This document shows positions 2,468-48,035 of a stretch of DNA of 64,000 nucleotides, one piece after another (position 1 is the stretch's first letter; each line of letters begins with the position of its first letter). This DNA comes from Wolbachia endosymbiont of Litomosoides brasiliensis (GTDB lineage: Bacteria; Pseudomonadota; Alphaproteobacteria; Rickettsiales; Anaplasmataceae). A program made the position numbers and the translations under genes. The stretch covers positions 62,001 to 126,000 of the forward strand of contig NZ_WQMO01000001.1 of NCBI RefSeq assembly GCF_013366805.1, written 5' to 3'. The notes below the pieces were generated by a model. That model was given only the letters and a program-made list of their open reading frames with translations. It did no database searches and was not told the DNA's origin.

Positions 2468-3563
2468 ATACCAATTCCTACTGTACAAGGCACGGGTGGA
2501 TAATAATGGAAAAGAAGCTGTACTGAAGTAAGTAAAATAGCAAATTTAAATGGCATTGAAATCAAAATTACTGGATAGAAAAGTCGTGGAACCAGCAAAA
2601 GAAACGCTGAAGGAGGTGCGAAGTAATGCATACGTTGCAAAAAAAACTAAATGCTGTAATTGCAGCAAAAAATACAGTATAACAGCCGTAGTAAAAATAT
2701 ATTGCATTTCAAGAAGGTGTACCAACTACATAGATAAAGCACCTAAAATTTGGAGGAAAGAAGAATTGTCTACTTCCCTTCAACATCATAGAAAAACTAA
2801 ATTGGATCAGAGTTGATTTAAATAAGTTGAGGTGTAGATGCAAGAAGACCCCAACCCAATATTACTATTAGAGAGATGAGAATAGGGCATTCAGGAAGGT
2901 TTGGCTTGAATGTTAGCAAGTCTACATTACACCGCAATGTGCAGAAAATAAAATTTTCGTATATTATGTCAAGACAATTCATAATGAGCAAGGTAAAGGT
3001 AGATAGGAAGAGTTTTAAAAAACCTAATGAGACTATTTGGTAAGCGCCCTAAACAAGAGTTGTTTTTTTTGGTGAATCGCGGTTTAACACACATCCGAAA
3101 GTTGGGCGCTGGTGTTTGAAAAAGGCATTAAAATGCAGGTTAAAGTAAAATCAGGTAAATAAAATTTTTATCTCTACAGTGCAGCTAATCCTAAAAATGG
3201 AGAGAGTTCTGGCTTATTTGCACCGCGGTCAACACTGATCTTATGAATATTAAATAAATGTTGCAATATTTAAGAACACAAGAAGCCTTTCTTATATGGA
3301 TTATGCTAGTTGGCATAAATTAGAAAATTTAAAGGTACCTAAAAGTATCGAGATTATACATTTACCACCATGTTCACCCGAACTCAATCCTAGTGAAAGA
3401 CTTTGGTTGTATAATAAGACAGAACACTTTACATAATAAAGTCTATAATACAATTGCTTCGTTTGAAAGCACTTTGTGTAAATTCATACCTTTCTTTTTC
3501 GCCCTGTAATTAAACAACTCTGCAATGTTGCTTGTTTGATCTACTAGTGATAAGAATTAATAT
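2468..3563 (+). mobile_element. IS630-family insertion sequence, inactivated copy A
   Basis: Left end TAATACCAATTCC at about 2466 and right end near 3563 match the imperfect terminal inverted repeats of the other copies, with TA at the border as expected for IS630/Tc1-type elements. The transposase remnant starts at 2550 (MALKSKLLDRKVVEPAK) and continues in shifting frames to the C-terminal segment at about 3297-3510. Frameshifts and stops throughout make it non-functional. Confidence 0.8.
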
Positions 3564-6997: not shown

Positions 6998-9052
6998 ATG
7001 AATAAATATGACGTAGTAGTGGTAGGTGGTGGTCATGCAGGATGTGAAGCAGCAGCAGCAGCAGCTCGCCTCGGTGCAAGCACGTTACTTATAACCCATA
7101 AAATTTCAACTATAGGAGAAATGTCTTGCAATCCAGCTATTGGAGGAATTGCAAAGGGTATTGTAGTTAGAGAGATTGATGCCCTTGACGGAATAATGGG
7201 AAGAGCAATTGATCAAGCAAGCATACATTCAGTCATTTTAAATAGCAGTAAAGGCGCAGCGGTGTGGGGGCCACGGGCACAGGCAGATAGAAAACTATAC
7301 AAGAAAGCGATGCAGGAAATTATTTTAAATCATGACAATTTAACAGTAAAAGAGGAGTCAGTTGATGATTTCCTTATCGAAAGTAATAGCAACGGAGAAC
7401 CGTACATTAAAGCTATTATAACGAGCTCAGGAGAACAGATACTGACAAGCAAAGTTGTTTTAACTACGGGCACTTTTCTACAAGGTGTGATTCATATAGG
7501 AGAACAAACAACCCCTTCGGGGAGAATGGGAGATAAGTCTGCAGTGAAACTTGCAAATACGTTGAAGAAGTACGATTTTAAATTAGGCAGATTGCGTACC
7601 GGAACTCCACCGAGGCTTGATCGTGGTACTATAAACTGGTCAATATTAGAAGAGCAAGTAGGTGATAATCCACCCATGCCGTTTTCTTATCTCACAGAAA
7701 AAATTAATCAACCTCAAGTCTCATGTTTCATTACCTATACTAATGAGAACACACACAGAATAATCCAAGCGAGTCTTCACAGGTCAGCTTCTTCATATCT
7801 GAATGACGTTGTTGCACCAAGATACTGCCCATCAATTGAAGCTAAAGTGAAAAAATTCGCAAAAAAAAGTAGTCACCAAATATTTTTAGAACCAGAGGGG
7901 CTTGATGATGATACTGTCTACCCAAATGGAATTTCAAATTCATTGCCTATTGAAGTGCAATGTAAAATGATAAATAGTATCAAAGGGCTTGAAAACGCAG
8001 AAATATTAAGACCTGGATATGCGGTTGAGTATAATTACATTGATCCACGAGAGCTATTTCATACTCTAGAAACTAAGAAAGTTAAAGGTCTATATTTTGC
8101 TGGCCAAATTAATGGTACTACTGGATATGAGGAAGCAGCTGGGCAAGGCATTATCGCCGGAATCAACGCAGTACTCTCTGCATCTCAAAAAAAAGAAAGC
8201 TTTGTTCTCCATCGTGTAGATTCATATATCGGCGTAATGATAGATGATCTGGTCACCAAAGGAGTGACTGAGCCTTATAGATTATTTACCTCACGTGCGG
8301 AATATAGACTAGCAATCAGGTCTGATAATGCAGATAGGAGATTAACGCAAAAAGGTTATAACATTTCCCTTGTATCGCATAAAAGATACTCTGTTTTGCA
8401 AAACAAGCTTAAATCTATTAGGCAACTTGAAGAGAAATTAGAGAGTCTGAAAATTACTCCTGAGCAGCTCAGGTTTTATGGTGTTAAAATATCTTATGAT
8501 GGAATAAGGAAAACGGCATTAGATCTACTTAGCTATCCAAATATTGATTGGAATAAATTACAAGAAATATGGCCAGAGTTAATTAATGTTACATGTTGGA
8601 ATGGCAACAAGGCAGGTCAAACTGTCATCCAAGTGGCTGATGCTGGAATCCAGAAAAGAGATGTAGATTCCAGCGTCACGCGCTGGAATGACAAAACAGG
8701 GTACTGGAGTGACAGCAAAATAACAAGTAACACAATTAAAAATGAAATATGCGAAGCAATTGCAATTGAAGCGAAATACAAACCTTATTTAGCAAGACAA
8801 GAAGCAGATATGAAGTTTTTACAAGAGGAAATGAACACTCAAATTCCAACCGATTTCAACTATTTACAAGTTAAAGGCTTATCGAGCGAAGTAATAGAAA
8901 AACTACAGGTAATTAAACCAGCAACGATTGGTATTGCGAAGCAAATACAAGGTATCACTCCAGCGGCAATAGTTAGCATATTGGTGTATTTGAGAAATAG
9001 GAAAACGAAAGTAGCTACTGATTCTGTACGAGGTGTCCATGTCAAAAATTGA
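6998..9052 (+). CDS. mnmG: tRNA uridine-5-carboxymethylaminomethyl modification enzyme MnmG (GidA)
   Basis: The FAD protein that, with MnmE, adds the cmnm5 group to U34 of certain tRNAs. The FAD-binding [13 protein letters not shown] is at residues 6-18, the signature [15 protein letters not shown] follows at about 46-60, and a second signature [13 protein letters not shown] lies near 376-388. At 684 residues it is longer than usual (about 625-630). The excess is a segment at about residues 531-577, encoded by a palindromic repeat (see 8588-8728), after which the normal C-terminal domain ([15 protein letters not shown]) resumes in frame. An AGGAAA ribosome site precedes the ATG. The next gene overlaps its 3' end. 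Confidence 0.95.
8588..8728 (+). repeat. Palindromic element inserted in frame in mnmG
   Basis: Contains paired arms such as CTGGAATCCAG (8643-8653) and ATTCCAGCGTCACGCGCTGG (about 8669-8688), followed by GGTACTGGAGTGACAGC. The encoded residues ([20 protein letters not shown]) have no counterpart in the MnmG family. The pattern matches the small palindromic elements known from Wolbachia and Rickettsia genes. Related arms occur in birA in this window. Confidence 0.75.
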
Positions 9053-26162: not shown

Positions 26163-28082
26163 TCAATAGTAGGCGATATTACTCTTAATTACCTCAACAT
26201 TTTCCCTTGGTAGCTCTTTAATAAACCGCGAAACATACATTGGTTGCCACTGGTTATTCATTTCTCTTCTGTTTGCACATGAAATGGTTAACTTTTCCTT
26301 TGCTCTAGTTATTCCAACATATGCAAGTCTCCTTTCTTCTTCTAAGGCTTTGCCACTTTTATCCTCAAAAGATCTTTGATGAGGAAATAGCCCTTCTTCC
26401 CAACCGGGTAAAAACACACATGGAAATTCAAGCCCTTTAGCTGCATGAAGGGTCATGACGTGTACGGTATCGTCATTATTCATATTATCCACTTCCATAA
26501 CTAAGCTTACATGCTCCAAGAAAGTTGTAGCATTGTCAAAATTTTTTAAGGATGAAATAAGTTCTTTGACATTTTCTATTCGTGCTGAGCCTGTTACTCC
26601 TTCATTTTCAAGCATTTCAATATATCCTGATTGATTTGCTATAGTTTTAACAAATTTGTGTAGTGGTTTTACACTTATCATTTCTTCCCAGGCTTCAATT
26701 TTATTTAAAAAATCATTTAGTGAGAGTTTGACTTTCTCAGTCACTTGATTACTATCAACTAATATTTTTGCCGTTTCAAAGAAAGAAGTTTTGTTATCTT
26801 GGGCGAACGTGTATATCTTTTTTAAGGTGGTAGGTCCTATGCTTCTTTTTGGCCGATTTACTATTCTTTCAAAAGCTAAGTCATCATTATTATTTGTAAC
26901 GAGTCTTAAATATGCAATTACATCTCTGACTTCTTGACGTTCATAGAATTTTACGCCACTTATAATCTTGTAAGGGATCAAATACTTTATAAAATACTCT
27001 TCCAGAACTCTAGTTTGAAAAGTAGCCCTGACCAGCACTGCCATATCACTGAATCTATATTTATTGAGCTTTAATATCTGTTCGCTTATGAATCTTGCTT
27101 CAGCTTTTCCATCCCATAATTTTATTAGATTTACCTTTTCCCCTTTGATGTTTCTTGTCCACAATTTTTTTTCTAAGCGAGTTTTATTGTGATTGATAAC
27201 GTATGATGCAGTTGCAAGTATATGAGATGTTGATCTGTAATTACACTCTAGTTTGACGGTTTTTGCATTTTTAAAATCGTCAGAAAATTTTAAAATGTTT
27301 TCAACCTCTGCACCACGCCAGCTATATATCGATTGATCGTCATCCCCCACACAACAAATATTTGAGTGCTCTTTTGCAAGGTATTTTAGCCAAAGATATT
27401 GTATTGCATTTGTATCTTGGTACTCATCTACCATAATATGTTTAAACTTGCCCTGATAATAGGACAGAGTTTCAGTTTTTTGATTGAAGAGCTGTATATT
27501 ATACAGTAGTAAATCGCCAAAGTCAACGGAGTTAAGGAACCTTAGCCTTTCCTGATATTGATAATAAACTTTTAATGCGGTTACGTATATTGGCCTAAAT
27601 AGTTGAGTTTCTTCCACTTCAAATGGCAGTAAGCACTTCTCTTTCCATTTTTGAATGATGTTCATAATGGTACTATGTTTTTCTAATAAATTGCCGGGAC
27701 TTGCTTCATTAACAATATTTTTTATTACCTGTAGTTGGTCGTCTATGCCAATAATTGTAAAACTGGAGTTTAAGCCTACAACGTCGGCGTGACGACGTAA
27801 AATTTTTGCTGCAATTGCATGAAAAGTACCAAGCCATGGTATATTTGTACCCGTGAGTTCGAGCACTCTCGACATCATTTCACTTGCTGCTTTATTTGTG
27901 AATGTGACTGCCAGTATCTCATCAGAATGAGCATAGCCATTTCGAATTATATGTGCTATCCTTGAGGTAATCGTTCTTGTCTTTCCCGTCCCAGCCCCAG
28001 CCAGTATCAAAACTGGCCCATCTACGTTGGTTACAGCTGATTGTTGTTCCGAATTTAGGAGCGAGAGATAATCGTTCATTGC
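26163..28082 (-). CDS. uvrD: UvrD/PcrA-type ATP-dependent DNA helicase
   Basis: A superfamily 1A 3'-5' helicase for repair and replication restart. The motifs run in order: GAGTGKTRT (Walker A, residues 28-36), VDEYQDTNAIQ, GDDDQSIYSWRGA, a Q-E-x-RD segment (YERQEVRDVIAYL), VMTLHAAKGLEFPCVF and EERRLAYVGITRAKE. I chose the ATG at 28082 (MNDYLSLLNSEQQSAV) because family members begin here; the frame stays open to 28127. At 639 residues it lacks the C-terminal Tudor-like tail of E. coli UvrD. PcrA is an equally good name. Confidence 0.95.
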   Translation of the reverse strand, partial: AMNDYLSLLNSEQQSAVTNVDGPVLILAGAGTGKTRTITSRIAHIIRNGYAHSDEILAVTFTNKAASEMMSRVLELTGTNIPWLGTFHAIAAKILRRHADVVGLNSSFTIIGIDDQLQVIKNIVNEASPGNLLEKHSTIMNIIQKWKEKCLLPFEVEETQLFRPIYVTALKVYYQYQERLRFLNSVDFGDLLLYNIQLFNQKTETLSYYQGKFKHIMVDEYQDTNAIQYLWLKYLAKEHSNICCVGDDDQSIYSWRGAEVENILKFSDDFKNAKTVKLECNYRSTSHILATASYVINHNKTRLEKKLWTRNIKGEKVNLIKLWDGKAEARFISEQILKLNKYRFSDMAVLVRATFQTRVLEEYFIKYLIPYKIISGVKFYERQEVRDVIAYLRLVTNNNDDLAFERIVNRPKRSIGPTTLKKIYTFAQDNKTSFFETAKILVDSNQVTEKVKLSLNDFLNKIEAWEEMISVKPLHKFVKTIANQSGYIEMLENEGVTGSARIENVKELISSLKNFDNATTFLEHVSLVMEVDNMNNDDTVHVMTLHAAKGLEFPCVFLPGWEEGLFPHQRSFEDKSGKALEEERRLAYVGITRAKEKLTISCANRREMNNQWQPMYVSRFIKELPRENVEVIKSNIAYY

Positions 28083-28321
28083 AGCTCTACCAGATATAGT
28101 TACATAAGTTAACTCTATTGTTTGCACTCTGTAAAGTTTTTGTTCTCATGTAATGAAAGCTGAGACAAATTCTCAAATAGATTAGGCAAAGTTTCTTGCG
28201 GATCATCAGCTACCAAAATGTCATCATTCCCTAAATAATTTGGTTATACTAGGTCCATTGCGATTATTTTCCTTTTAGGGTTGTGCTTTTTATACAAAGC
28301 AAAAAACCTAGCTCTGTTACT

Positions 28322-38819: not shown

Positions 38820-39764
38820 CTACTCTTCAACAGTAGAATGATATACTGCTATTTCTTGTTTGCCATTTAAGCTTAAGCTAATTATTGAAACACTCTCTTT
38901 GTCAAAATCTATATCTTCGATTAACATATCATCAGTAACGTTCAAAAGTTCTGGCGGAGAAATAATAGTTCTATTATTACCCTCTTTCATTCCTATAACC
39001 CCAAGATCCATAGCAAGTGGTACTTTTTTATCGCCAACCTTAAATTGTACTGTTTGATCTTTGATCATATATTCACCATCATATCTCATTAAGCTATATT
39101 TAACTGATATCCTGTCACCACACTTTGCCTGCTTTCCAGTCTTGTTAATTAATTCGTTAAAAATCATCATACTATTTGCTGAGTCAGGATATTTATCTTT
39201 TACTTCGATTAGTTTAACATAATAAGAGTTAAAATTCATTTTATTCTTATTGGCAATATTGTTTACCGTAATCACACGCTCTCCACCTTCCTTCATACCT
39301 ATTACTCCTGAACTCACCTCTCTTTGGTTGTTATCTTGACCTATTGTCAAAGTAACGTCATAAACCTGTTTTGAAAGTGGCAGCGGTGTTGCTAAATTAT
39401 TAGATATTTTATACATTTGTAATACAACTTCCTGACCGCAAAAAGCTTTACTGCCACTGCCTTCTGTGATTTCATAAAAATTTATTGAATTTTCTTCTAT
39501 TTTTTGTTGTATTGTTTCTTTCAAATATTCTGTCAGCCCATGCTTTTTAATATAGCGATCAAGTGCTGATTCAAGTATTGGCTTCACTAGATAATATGCT
39601 ACCGTCTGTACCCAACCACTATGCGCAGCGTTTATCTCATAAAGCTTGTCCTTTTTTTCTTGGTTACCTTTGTTTATACAAACGACAACAAGCACAAAGG
39701 CAGAAGTTAAAGTGGCAATTATCACTATAGAAATAATCAATTGTAGTATAATCTTTCTAGCCAT
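38820..39764 (-). CDS. Membrane-anchored protein with two tandem FKBP-like domains
   Basis: One N-terminal transmembrane anchor (about residues 8-30), a helical linker (to about 92), then two repeated domains (about 93-195 and 210-310). Each carries the FKBP-type core G-VIGMKEG-x-x-R (SSGVIGMKEGGERVITV and DLGVIGMKEGNNRTIIS) preceded by a CG-x-x-V/I beta segment. The usual aromatic active-site residues of peptidyl-prolyl isomerases are not evident, so activity is doubtful and a chaperone role is an inference. It overlaps the end of the prenyl synthase gene by 8 bp and is likely co-transcribed with it. The protein probably faces the periplasm. Confidence 0.75.
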   Translation of the reverse strand: MARKIILQLIISIVIIATLTSAFVLVVVCINKGNQEKKDKLYEINAAHSGWVQTVAYYLVKPILESALDRYIKKHGLTEYLKETIQQKIEENSINFYEITEGSGSKAFCGQEVVLQMYKISNNLATPLPLSKQVYDVTLTIGQDNNQREVSSGVIGMKEGGERVITVNNIANKNKMNFNSYYVKLIEVKDKYPDSANSMMIFNELINKTGKQAKCGDRISVKYSLMRYDGEYMIKDQTVQFKVGDKKVPLAMDLGVIGMKEGNNRTIISPPELLNVTDDMLIEDIDFDKESVSIISLSLNGKQEIAVYHSTVEE

Positions 39765-40674
39765 CTTTTTTTACTTGATTCAATAAATTATGTAAATAAT
39801 TAGTATCTCCTGAAAGCCTACTAAGATTACCCAAAGCTTGTTTAAAGAGATTGTCTATATAGTTTTCTATTTCACCTTTACTAAGCACGGACATCAAATT
39901 ATTCGCTTTATCTTGTTTGTAATCTTTAATATCATCCTTAGCTTGAAAGATAAGCCCTAGATTCACTCCGTAGTTACATAACGCTCTACGTTGCTTGTCT
40001 GTAGCACTTCCTATTATAGCGCCTATTTCACATGAAGCCGCAAATAGTTTCGCAGTTTTCATTAAATGAATTCCTTTTATTTTACTATCTGGAGTCACTC
40101 CAGTGTATAACTCTGGAATCACGTTCTTATTGTATAGCTGTCTGGTGTGTTCATTTATAATTAAGTTTTCTGGATTTAAGTAGTCAGAGTGCTGGATGAC
40201 ATGAAGCGCTGTCTTAATATCTAAAACCTGTCCCCCTGCCATTCCCTTGGCTCCTATTGCCTGAGAAAGCGCTTTTATAATTTTACAGCGCTTGTTGCTA
40301 TTCTCATTTAACGAAGATAGTATTTCAAAAGCTAAAGTAAGAAGTGCATCTCCTGCAAGCACTGCTGTTGCTTCATCAAATCTTTTATGGCAGCTTAACT
40401 GGCCTCTGCGAGTATCGTTATTATCCATACATGGCAAATCATCATGAATCAGAGAGTAGGTATGAACACATTCAATTGCCACAGCAATCGATATTACCCT
40501 CTCAGCCTTGACATTAAATACTCGTGACGAAGCTACGACTAAAAATGGACGTATGTGCTTTGCAGGAGCAAGAAGCGCATAACGTATAGCTGATATAAGC
40601 TTATTTTGACTATCTTCAGGTAAAAGCTTATTTATTTCTGTGATAAGTAAATTTTCTGTTGTTTTGTCTAGCAT
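39757..40674 (-). CDS. ispA: Polyprenyl (farnesyl/geranyl type) diphosphate synthase
   Basis: Elongates allylic isoprenoid diphosphates with isopentenyl diphosphate. The first aspartate-rich motif is HDDLPCMDNNDTRRG (Asp78, 79, 84), with the two-residue insertion typical of bacterial short-chain synthases. The second is FQAKDDIKDYKQD (about 238-250). Length 305 residues. It is transcribed divergently from acpP across a 150-bp gap holding two perfect palindromes. The exact chain length of the product cannot be told. Confidence 0.92.
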   Translation of the reverse strand: MLDKTTENLLITEINKLLPEDSQNKLISAIRYALLAPAKHIRPFLVVASSRVFNVKAERVISIAVAIECVHTYSLIHDDLPCMDNNDTRRGQLSCHKRFDEATAVLAGDALLTLAFEILSSLNENSNKRCKIIKALSQAIGAKGMAGGQVLDIKTALHVIQHSDYLNPENLIINEHTRQLYNKNVIPELYTGVTPDSKIKGIHLMKTAKLFAASCEIGAIIGSATDKQRRALCNYGVNLGLIFQAKDDIKDYKQDKANNLMSVLSKGEIENYIDNLFKQALGNLSRLSGDTNYLHNLLNQVKKDG

Positions 40675-46579: not shown

Positions 46580-48035
46580 GCTGGCCTGTCTTACTACCAG
46601 CACCATAAATAGTGTAATTTTGCCTAGATTTGTTAAATCACTGATAAAATTTGAAATGAGCGAGGCATCATCCATAATCTTTGCGTTATTAAATCCATTG
46701 CTGATTAAAGCCTCTTATATATCATCAATCCTACGAGTAGTAATAGACTTATCTTCTGGGGGATAAACAGGACAGGGATTACATAGTCAAACATCATGAA
46801 AATCCGTATGAATTCATTAAAAAATTGTGAATATGAGGAACACGAAGCAGCTTGATAATTCTATCATCTTTCCTTTGGTGATTAGACATGCTGCTGTTAA
46901 AGTTGCCTATATTTCACTTGGATTATGGGCATAGTCTTCAATTAACTTAACGTTTTTAATATCGGCTACTAAGAAAAATCTTTTTGCAACTCCTGTAAAT
47001 TCCAAAAGGCCTTTTTAGTGTCCACATCGTTGACCCTCAGGTTTATTGCAACCGGTATTGCAACTAGAGCAATACTAACCTTATGCATTCTTAATTGCGT
47101 TTGATAGTACTACGTTTTTTATAATTCTTGATCCTAGTGATGTCATTTGAATTGAAGATAAAGGAGGGCTGCTGTCATCCCAGTGCATGACACTGGGATC
47201 TAACTTCTGTCTATACTATAACCCATCAGTCAATACATTAAATTCTATATGGTTATTATGTTGCCTGATGTTACTTGCCTTGACATTACTTGCTTTTGCA
47301 GCGAGTGACGCCGATTTTTTTCTGAATCTCGATGTTATGCACTGGGGTGACAAAGAGGGATTGAATGACAAGGGGAAGCACCATCAACCCCTAAATGTTG
47401 CAGAACCACTTTTGCTATCACTAATCCCTATAGAGTCAGGCAAAATTGCAAAATCTACACTGTTTATAAATTGAGAAAATGTATTTTGACATTATTAGGT
47501 GTTCCATAATAGTCTGTATGGTCCTCATTAATGCTTGTTATAACAGCGATATTTTTAGGGATTTTTAGCATAGTTTCATCAGATTCATTGACTTCGATTA
47601 AAAGGATATCACTCTTGCCAAGTCTTGAGTTATTTTGATAGGAGTTTAATATCCACTACAATTACAGTTGCATCGGTACTGAAGTGACCGAAAATAGAAA
47701 CAATCATGGCCGTTGTTGTTGTCTTTCTACTTAAACCTGGAACTGCTATTACATACTTATCTTTCATAATTTTAGCAAGCATGCCTGGTATATGCAAAAT
47801 AGTCTTATTATTGTTTCTTGCTGCAACTAACTCCACACATTATTAGATTTTATGGCAGAAGGATATGTGACTGTGACCTATCTACATTGTTGCTTAATTA
47901 TGCATCACTATCTTGAATTTTGTAATTGGAATTATGGAGAATTTCGGCAATTGTGCTCATTCCAATTTCACCTGTACCAATTATATATATTGTTCCTTTC
48001 TAGACACCATTTATATTTAGCAGTAGATTTTTACT
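46580..48035 (-). pseudogene. murC: murC pseudogene (UDP-MurNAc-alanine ligase)
   Basis: Minus-strand pieces in order follow MurC. An N-terminal [20 protein letters not shown] (about 47930-47995) is followed by SNNVDRSQS and [20 protein letters not shown] (47720-47785). There the ATP-binding GTHGKT has become GLSRKT. Then come [21 protein letters not shown] (about 46900) and a C-terminal [20 protein letters not shown]-like piece (about 46640-46750). Frameshifts, stops and an inserted palindromic element (47165-47345) break it. Confidence 0.82.
47165..47345. repeat. Palindromic element inside the murC pseudogene
   Basis: GTCATCCCAGTGCATGACAC followed by TGGGATCTAAC at one end and ATGTTATGCACTGGGGTGAC at the other. 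These arms belong to the same palindromic family as those in birA and mnmG. The short open frame 47187-47474 across it is not a supported gene. Confidence 0.6.

Follow-up and report, generated by a model that had tools for sequence, protein, structure and literature searches.

An in-frame insert in Wolbachia mnmG is probably a decayed copy of the WPE family of palindromic elements

Introduction

How does self-complementary DNA come to lie in the reading frame of a housekeeping gene, and is it used or merely endured there? The question is raised by mnmG (gidA) of the Wolbachia endosymbiont of Litomosoides brasiliensis, found at positions 6998–9052 (+) of the window, the whole 64,000-nucleotide stretch of DNA analyzed here. 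Palindromic elements sitting in frame inside essential genes represent an odd survival route for selfish DNA, and to our knowledge there is no settled mechanism by which they move. The Wolbachia family, WPE, reportedly goes back to work by Ogata in 2005. In the available text of PMC4224334, WPEs are described as palindromic, dispersed and inserted in frame in housekeeping genes without introducing stops, with addA, addB and priA as named hosts. The Rickettsia palindromic elements (RPEs) are likewise palindromic and inserted in frame, in protein regions that are exposed, according to the accessible parts of PMC3767692 and PMC10969869.

Results

The mnmG gene and its variable loop

The gene is a single open frame encoding 684 residues with the domains GIDA, GIDA_C_1st and SAM_GIDA_C, and its product matches TIGR00136 at 799 bits (cut-off 525), which identifies a normal MnmG and bears out the original prediction of an otherwise intact protein with the frame kept. 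Alignment delimits a length-variable loop of 62 residues (529–590; 8582–8767, +), bounded by WPEL (residue 528) and EAKYKPYL (residue 591). For comparing loop lengths, 11 rows were picked out of 80 loci, using the same alignment as for the structural modelling; the loop comprises exactly 13 residues in all ten aligned non-Wolbachia rows, including both of those labelled Rickettsia, and likewise in the named Wolbachia of Howardula. Subtracting the 13-residue loop of the non-Wolbachia rows from the 62 residues gives an insert of 49 residues; the frame thus encodes extra residues as had been predicted, in a number somewhat above the approximately 47 first proposed. The span originally given (8588–8728) lies a few bases off the stretch modelled as disordered (see below). 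Its proposed placement before the C-terminal domain is correct for SAM_GIDA_C (608–662), but the Pfam domain GIDA_C_1st (462–602) is interrupted near its end, so the insert is located within the C-terminal helical region rather than ahead of it.

The insert contains an inverted repeat with arms of 28 nt (8623–8650 and 8666–8693, both +, and both within a match to RF02625) that are 79% complementary and spaced by 15 nt. As a single strand, 8588–8728 folds at -48.1 kcal/mol compared to -31.3 +/- 3.6 kcal/mol for shuffled sequences (z -4.64, with 0 of 200 shuffles equal), and the palindrome consequently exceeds chance, confirming the palindromic coding DNA described in the original prediction. 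The original prediction had named one observation that would count against it, the same residues in distant MnmG proteins lacking palindromic DNA; these were looked for and none were seen. Within Wolbachia, shorter loop forms of 22–32 residues without a significant fold are present, and these look like partial or decayed copies of the element.

Relationship to the WPE family

Compared to curated families, the insert matches RF02625 (WsnRNA46, Rfam) over 8623–8693 at 35.5 bits on the + strand and 26.8 bits on the - strand, missing the gathering score of 65.3. An antisense match to TIGR02697 (WPE_wolbac, NCBIfam), covering profile positions 23–36, was found at 8623–8664 (-; G000:C6:70623–70664) with 23.1 bits, below the curated cut-off of 27.55, while the sense strand gave no family at E 10. 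By either score, the insert is therefore no formal member. The two matches are nevertheless well positioned and, together with homologous copies elsewhere in the same genome, indicate that the insert is homologous to the WPE family. It is palindromic, in frame, free of premature stops and housed in an intact gene, and has dispersed homologous copies in its own genome (24 distinct places), all of which agree with a WPE-like palindromic repeat in the sense of the available text of PMC4224334. The analogy to Rickettsia palindromic elements drawn in the original prediction was the right reading, with the insert falling in Wolbachia's own family.

A blastn search with the insert found nine other places in the genome (ten in all) at E 0.01 or better, the best match being a copy in metG (81% identity over 71 bp, E 6e-12). 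The RF02625 search found 17 places, three of them, other than mnmG, above the gathering score, and combining both searches yielded the 24 distinct places. Open frames of at least 300 residues span 15 of these, the remaining nine not being so spanned, and the frames belong to mnmG, metG, der, addA, ileS, a PRK06567-type gene, a Methyltransf_28 gene, purL (two copies), an RluA-family gene, an M23-peptidase gene, hemH, murC and priA, along with one frame without a gene name (L165). The TIGR02697 cut-off is exceeded at four other places of this genome. Within the window, a second in-frame WPE lies at 40114–40197 (-; TIGR02697, 33.7 bits, above cut-off) in a 305-residue ORF (39757–40674, -) that by eye appears polyprenyl-synthetase-like, and a decayed copy at 47170–47352 (-; RF02625, 30.6 bits) is found outside any ORF of 100 residues or more.

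Overlap between RF02625 and TIGR02697

Across 34 Wolbachia genomes, RF02625 scored above its gathering score in 24 and TIGR02697 above its cut-off in 26, and neither had a match in 14 control genomes; the counts per genome are lower bounds, since only part of the candidates was scored. The places found by the two models often coincide (e.g. G014:1418096, G001:866496, G052:1187907, G010:1318322 and G005:1309982), and in the present genome 6 of the 14 TIGR02697 places overlap RF02625 places, as do three of the four above cut-off. Judged by these positions and by similarity, RF02625 and the copies inside genes belong to a single element family, and elements matched by RF02625 are often matched by TIGR02697 as well. 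In the accessible part of a review (PMC9029176), WsnRNA-46 is listed among the most frequently annotated bacterial sRNAs, as would be expected of a repeat. A statement equating RF02625 with WPE was not found in the literature searched, the scope of which did not extend to Ogata 2005 and Mayoral 2014.

Predicted effect on the protein

The structure was modelled, as the original prediction had suggested. In this AlphaFold2 model of MnmG (29 rows, mean pLDDT 75), residues 533–579 (8594–8734, +) are predicted to be disordered with pLDDT <50, and the loop shows no secondary structure before a helix at 574–612. The E. coli MnmG helix K547–N567 contacts MnmE residues 1–5, according to the available text of PMC12397908, and by sequence match the insert appears to end just before the equivalent helix. 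Tolerance of the insert seems more likely than a role, considering its near-neutral evolution and the ninefold variation in loop length described below.

Turnover of the loop among Wolbachia strains

The loop was compared in 30 Wolbachia MnmG loci, the present one and 29 others; of the 31 genomes of the genus used for this comparison, G009 yielded no MnmG locus. Aligned across strains, as the original prediction had proposed, the loop ranges from 13 to 118 residues, with 13 residues in seven loci, 22–32 in 13 and 62–118 in ten, and the three length classes require at least six changes on a tree built without the loop. Long forms carry a VIQVADTGIQ-like left arm and an SSVTRWND-like right arm, and many short forms retain right-arm-like residues only. 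Two loops of 24–26 residues (L026 and L027) show little likeness to the element, and their genomes have no RF02625 match. Fold z-scores range from -1.5 to -8.3 in the ten long forms and from -1.8 to +1.8 in the other 20; with z at or below -2.4 in nine of the ten (L006 having -1.5), significant folding is limited to the long forms.

The mnmG insert evolves close to neutrally. In four groups its dN/dS was 0.77, 1.79, 0.84 and 0.59, compared to 0.09, 0.09, 0.09 and 0.12 outside the insert. The values are pooled per group over non-independent pairs; single close pairs hold too few changes to judge. The inserts of L007 and L008 differ at five positions, which all fall in a 17-nt part of one arm, and the genome of L008 holds this locus's arm allele five times, mnmG included; the simplest reading of these sequences would be conversion by another copy, in either direction. 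At the same junction, the loci L009 and L017 have a common 42-nt stretch with one difference, although L022 and L013 are empty; one insertion followed by losses, a transfer, or two separate insertions may account for this.

Anatomy of full-length relatives

Many palindromic cores form part of a longer element whose outer ends are ACAACTGTACGAACATTG. From three genomes, 12 convergent pairs were taken, having the ends ACAACTGT..ACAGTTGT (ends also written CACAACTGTACG) and measuring 203–309 bp when one extra base per end is counted. Full-length relatives span about 200–310 bp, end in inverted repeats and are flanked by a duplicated 9-bp target. The 9-mers flanking the 12 pairs, which are not fully independent as several are nested in other palindromic repeats and the duplication lies partly in one repeated host palindrome, match at a mean of 5.83 of 9 positions in register compared to 1.8–3.2 at 12 other shifts, with six pairs matching at 8 or 9 positions and six at 5 or fewer; left and right flanks of different elements match at a mean of 3.96. 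In 74 rows cut at the ends of the palindromic core, with some overlap between rows, no universal direct repeat was obvious at those ends. Nested insertion of the element into other palindromic repeats is common.

A whole element is also found in mnmG itself: in L019 (strain G005), a 174-bp element lies between TGCATAACA and TGTATGACA (7/9 matching), 183 bp in total and in frame. Terminal inverted repeats and a target duplication, the hallmarks of MITEs, are present in the full-length relatives and in L019 mnmG and absent from the window copy, which is too decayed for an outer inverted repeat or a clean target duplication to be seen; for this copy the 9-bp mechanism is thus borrowed from its relatives. 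On either side of the L009 insert, 17 nt of target sequence are imperfectly repeated in direct orientation (15/17; L009:3086–3102 and 3245–3261); this duplication exceeds the 9 bp seen with full elements, and the 9-bp model does not explain it.

A different palindromic repeat (around GCGAATGAATCGCGG) was observed as a recurrent landing site of the element in L190, L192, L193 and L194 (the flanks lying 1000 bases from either end).

Candidate movers

A mover with matching ends was sought in five genomes, where the short-range facing end pairs were only 201–307 bp apart. One pair of outer ends 2.3 kb apart enclosed no transposase-like ORF, the ORFs present being tpiA-like and ksgA-like by eye, and none of 60 sampled loci with IS256 or DDE_Tnp_1 transposases was flanked on both sides by element ends. 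The elements share with REP/RAYT systems the form of short dispersed palindromes, but no Y1 transposase (PF01797) was found in this genome, and it is absent from 21 of the 34 genomes, including the element-rich G001, G002, G003, G005, G014 and G052. A RAYT/IS200-type mover was rejected, as Y1_Tnp and the elements are distributed differently: in G015, 51 Y1 matches stand against three element matches, whereas G001, G002, G003, G005 and G014 have no Y1. Many of the 51 matches in G015, a genome of approximately 1 Mb, contain stops, and they look like a large decayed IS200-like expansion.

Discussion

We consider the insert to be, very probably, a decayed WPE copy. It would have landed, in frame, in a disordered MnmG loop and been retained there for lack of any harm. 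Family homology, in-frame position, extra length found only in Wolbachia, turnover between strains, near-neutral evolution and predicted disorder have been documented above, and the best reading of the insert is as tolerated selfish DNA. The WPE family would spread as a non-autonomous, MITE-like transposable element, with a transposase acting in trans and making 9-bp staggered cuts that give rise to the 9-bp target duplications. As nine duplicated bases amount to three codons, any element whose length is divisible by three would leave the frame intact, and out-of-frame insertions would be removed by selection. Settled copies might then be shortened without loss of frame, be overwritten by others of the family, and be reused as landing sites for new elements.

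A role at the RNA level would require the copy in the mnmG mRNA to pair with WsnRNA-46 derived from the palindrome, making the genes with in-frame copies a loose regulon. That RF02625 and the in-gene copies are one family speaks for this, and in 41 of 42 in silico tests a copy from the same genome paired more stably with the insert than with any other mnmG tile. However, such pairing follows automatically from palindromic homology, and the duplex test ignored competing self-folding of the insert. The window copy is moreover decayed, and none of the 13 short and seven empty loop forms folds significantly, so no conserved pairing site is kept. The regulon is physically possible but unlikely, and conservation gives it no support; that WsnRNA-46, as a transcribed copy of the same element, controls mnmG, metG, der, ileS, purL, murC, priA, hemH and other mRNAs appears similarly improbable. 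If true, a selfish repeat would have supplied the core genome with a ready-made post-transcriptional regulon that comes and goes between strains.

Alternatively, the 49 residues could tune the binding between MnmE and MnmG, as the insert adjoins the helix (574–612 in the model) equivalent to the MnmE-contacting K547–N567 of E. coli (PMC12397908, in the part available). This is very unlikely given the near-neutral dN/dS of the insert, its predicted disorder, and the lack of a fixed motif in relatives, whose loops are anywhere from 13 to 118 residues long. A chance expansion of the loop, with no relation to a mobile repeat, would fit the scores below the curated cut-offs but is practically negligible in view of the strong palindrome and of the homologous copies that this genome carries in unrelated genes such as metG.

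As a decayed insertion of the WPE family in frame, the mnmG insert is a real instance of a known phenomenon; no earlier report of mnmG as a WPE host gene was found in the literature searched. It resembles the WPEs of PMC4224334, in that addA and priA, named in its available text, also carry the element in this genome, and differs in being decayed, its only TIGR02697 match being antisense and under the cut-off. With RF02625 it shares the same DNA element, matched over the arms, with full matches elsewhere in this genome; WsnRNA46 is, however, described as a small RNA gene, whereas the mnmG copy is part of a coding frame and does not reach the gathering score. Like the RPEs it is an in-frame palindromic insertion, but RPEs presumably represent other sequence families, and both Rickettsia MnmG rows have the 13-residue loop. 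The full-length relatives are MITE-like in size, terminal inverted repeats and 9-bp duplication, and are too short for a transposase gene, although no partner insertion sequence was found in the searches above and the window copy has no outer ends. Three observations go beyond the literature found: the MITE anatomy with its 9-bp duplication, the whole element in L019 mnmG, and the fact that two curated families overlap.

The 9-bp duplication and outer inverted repeats offer a concrete, testable transposition mechanism that may help explain frame tolerance, and the MnmG loops, 13 to 118 residues long, make up a natural length series within one housekeeping enzyme. A widely counted Wolbachia "sRNA" (WsnRNA46) and a "protein domain" (WPE_wolbac) would, judging from their shared positions, be one repeat, which affects annotation, read mapping and claims about targets.

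Another Rfam match in the window, to RF03531 at 26272–26369 (-; 51.5 bits), was rejected as an RNA element. RF03531 is a C. difficile sRNA located in a helicase gene, and the match reflects coding likeness, as it falls in a coding stretch of a helicase ORF (26163–28127, UvrD/PcrA-like by eye).
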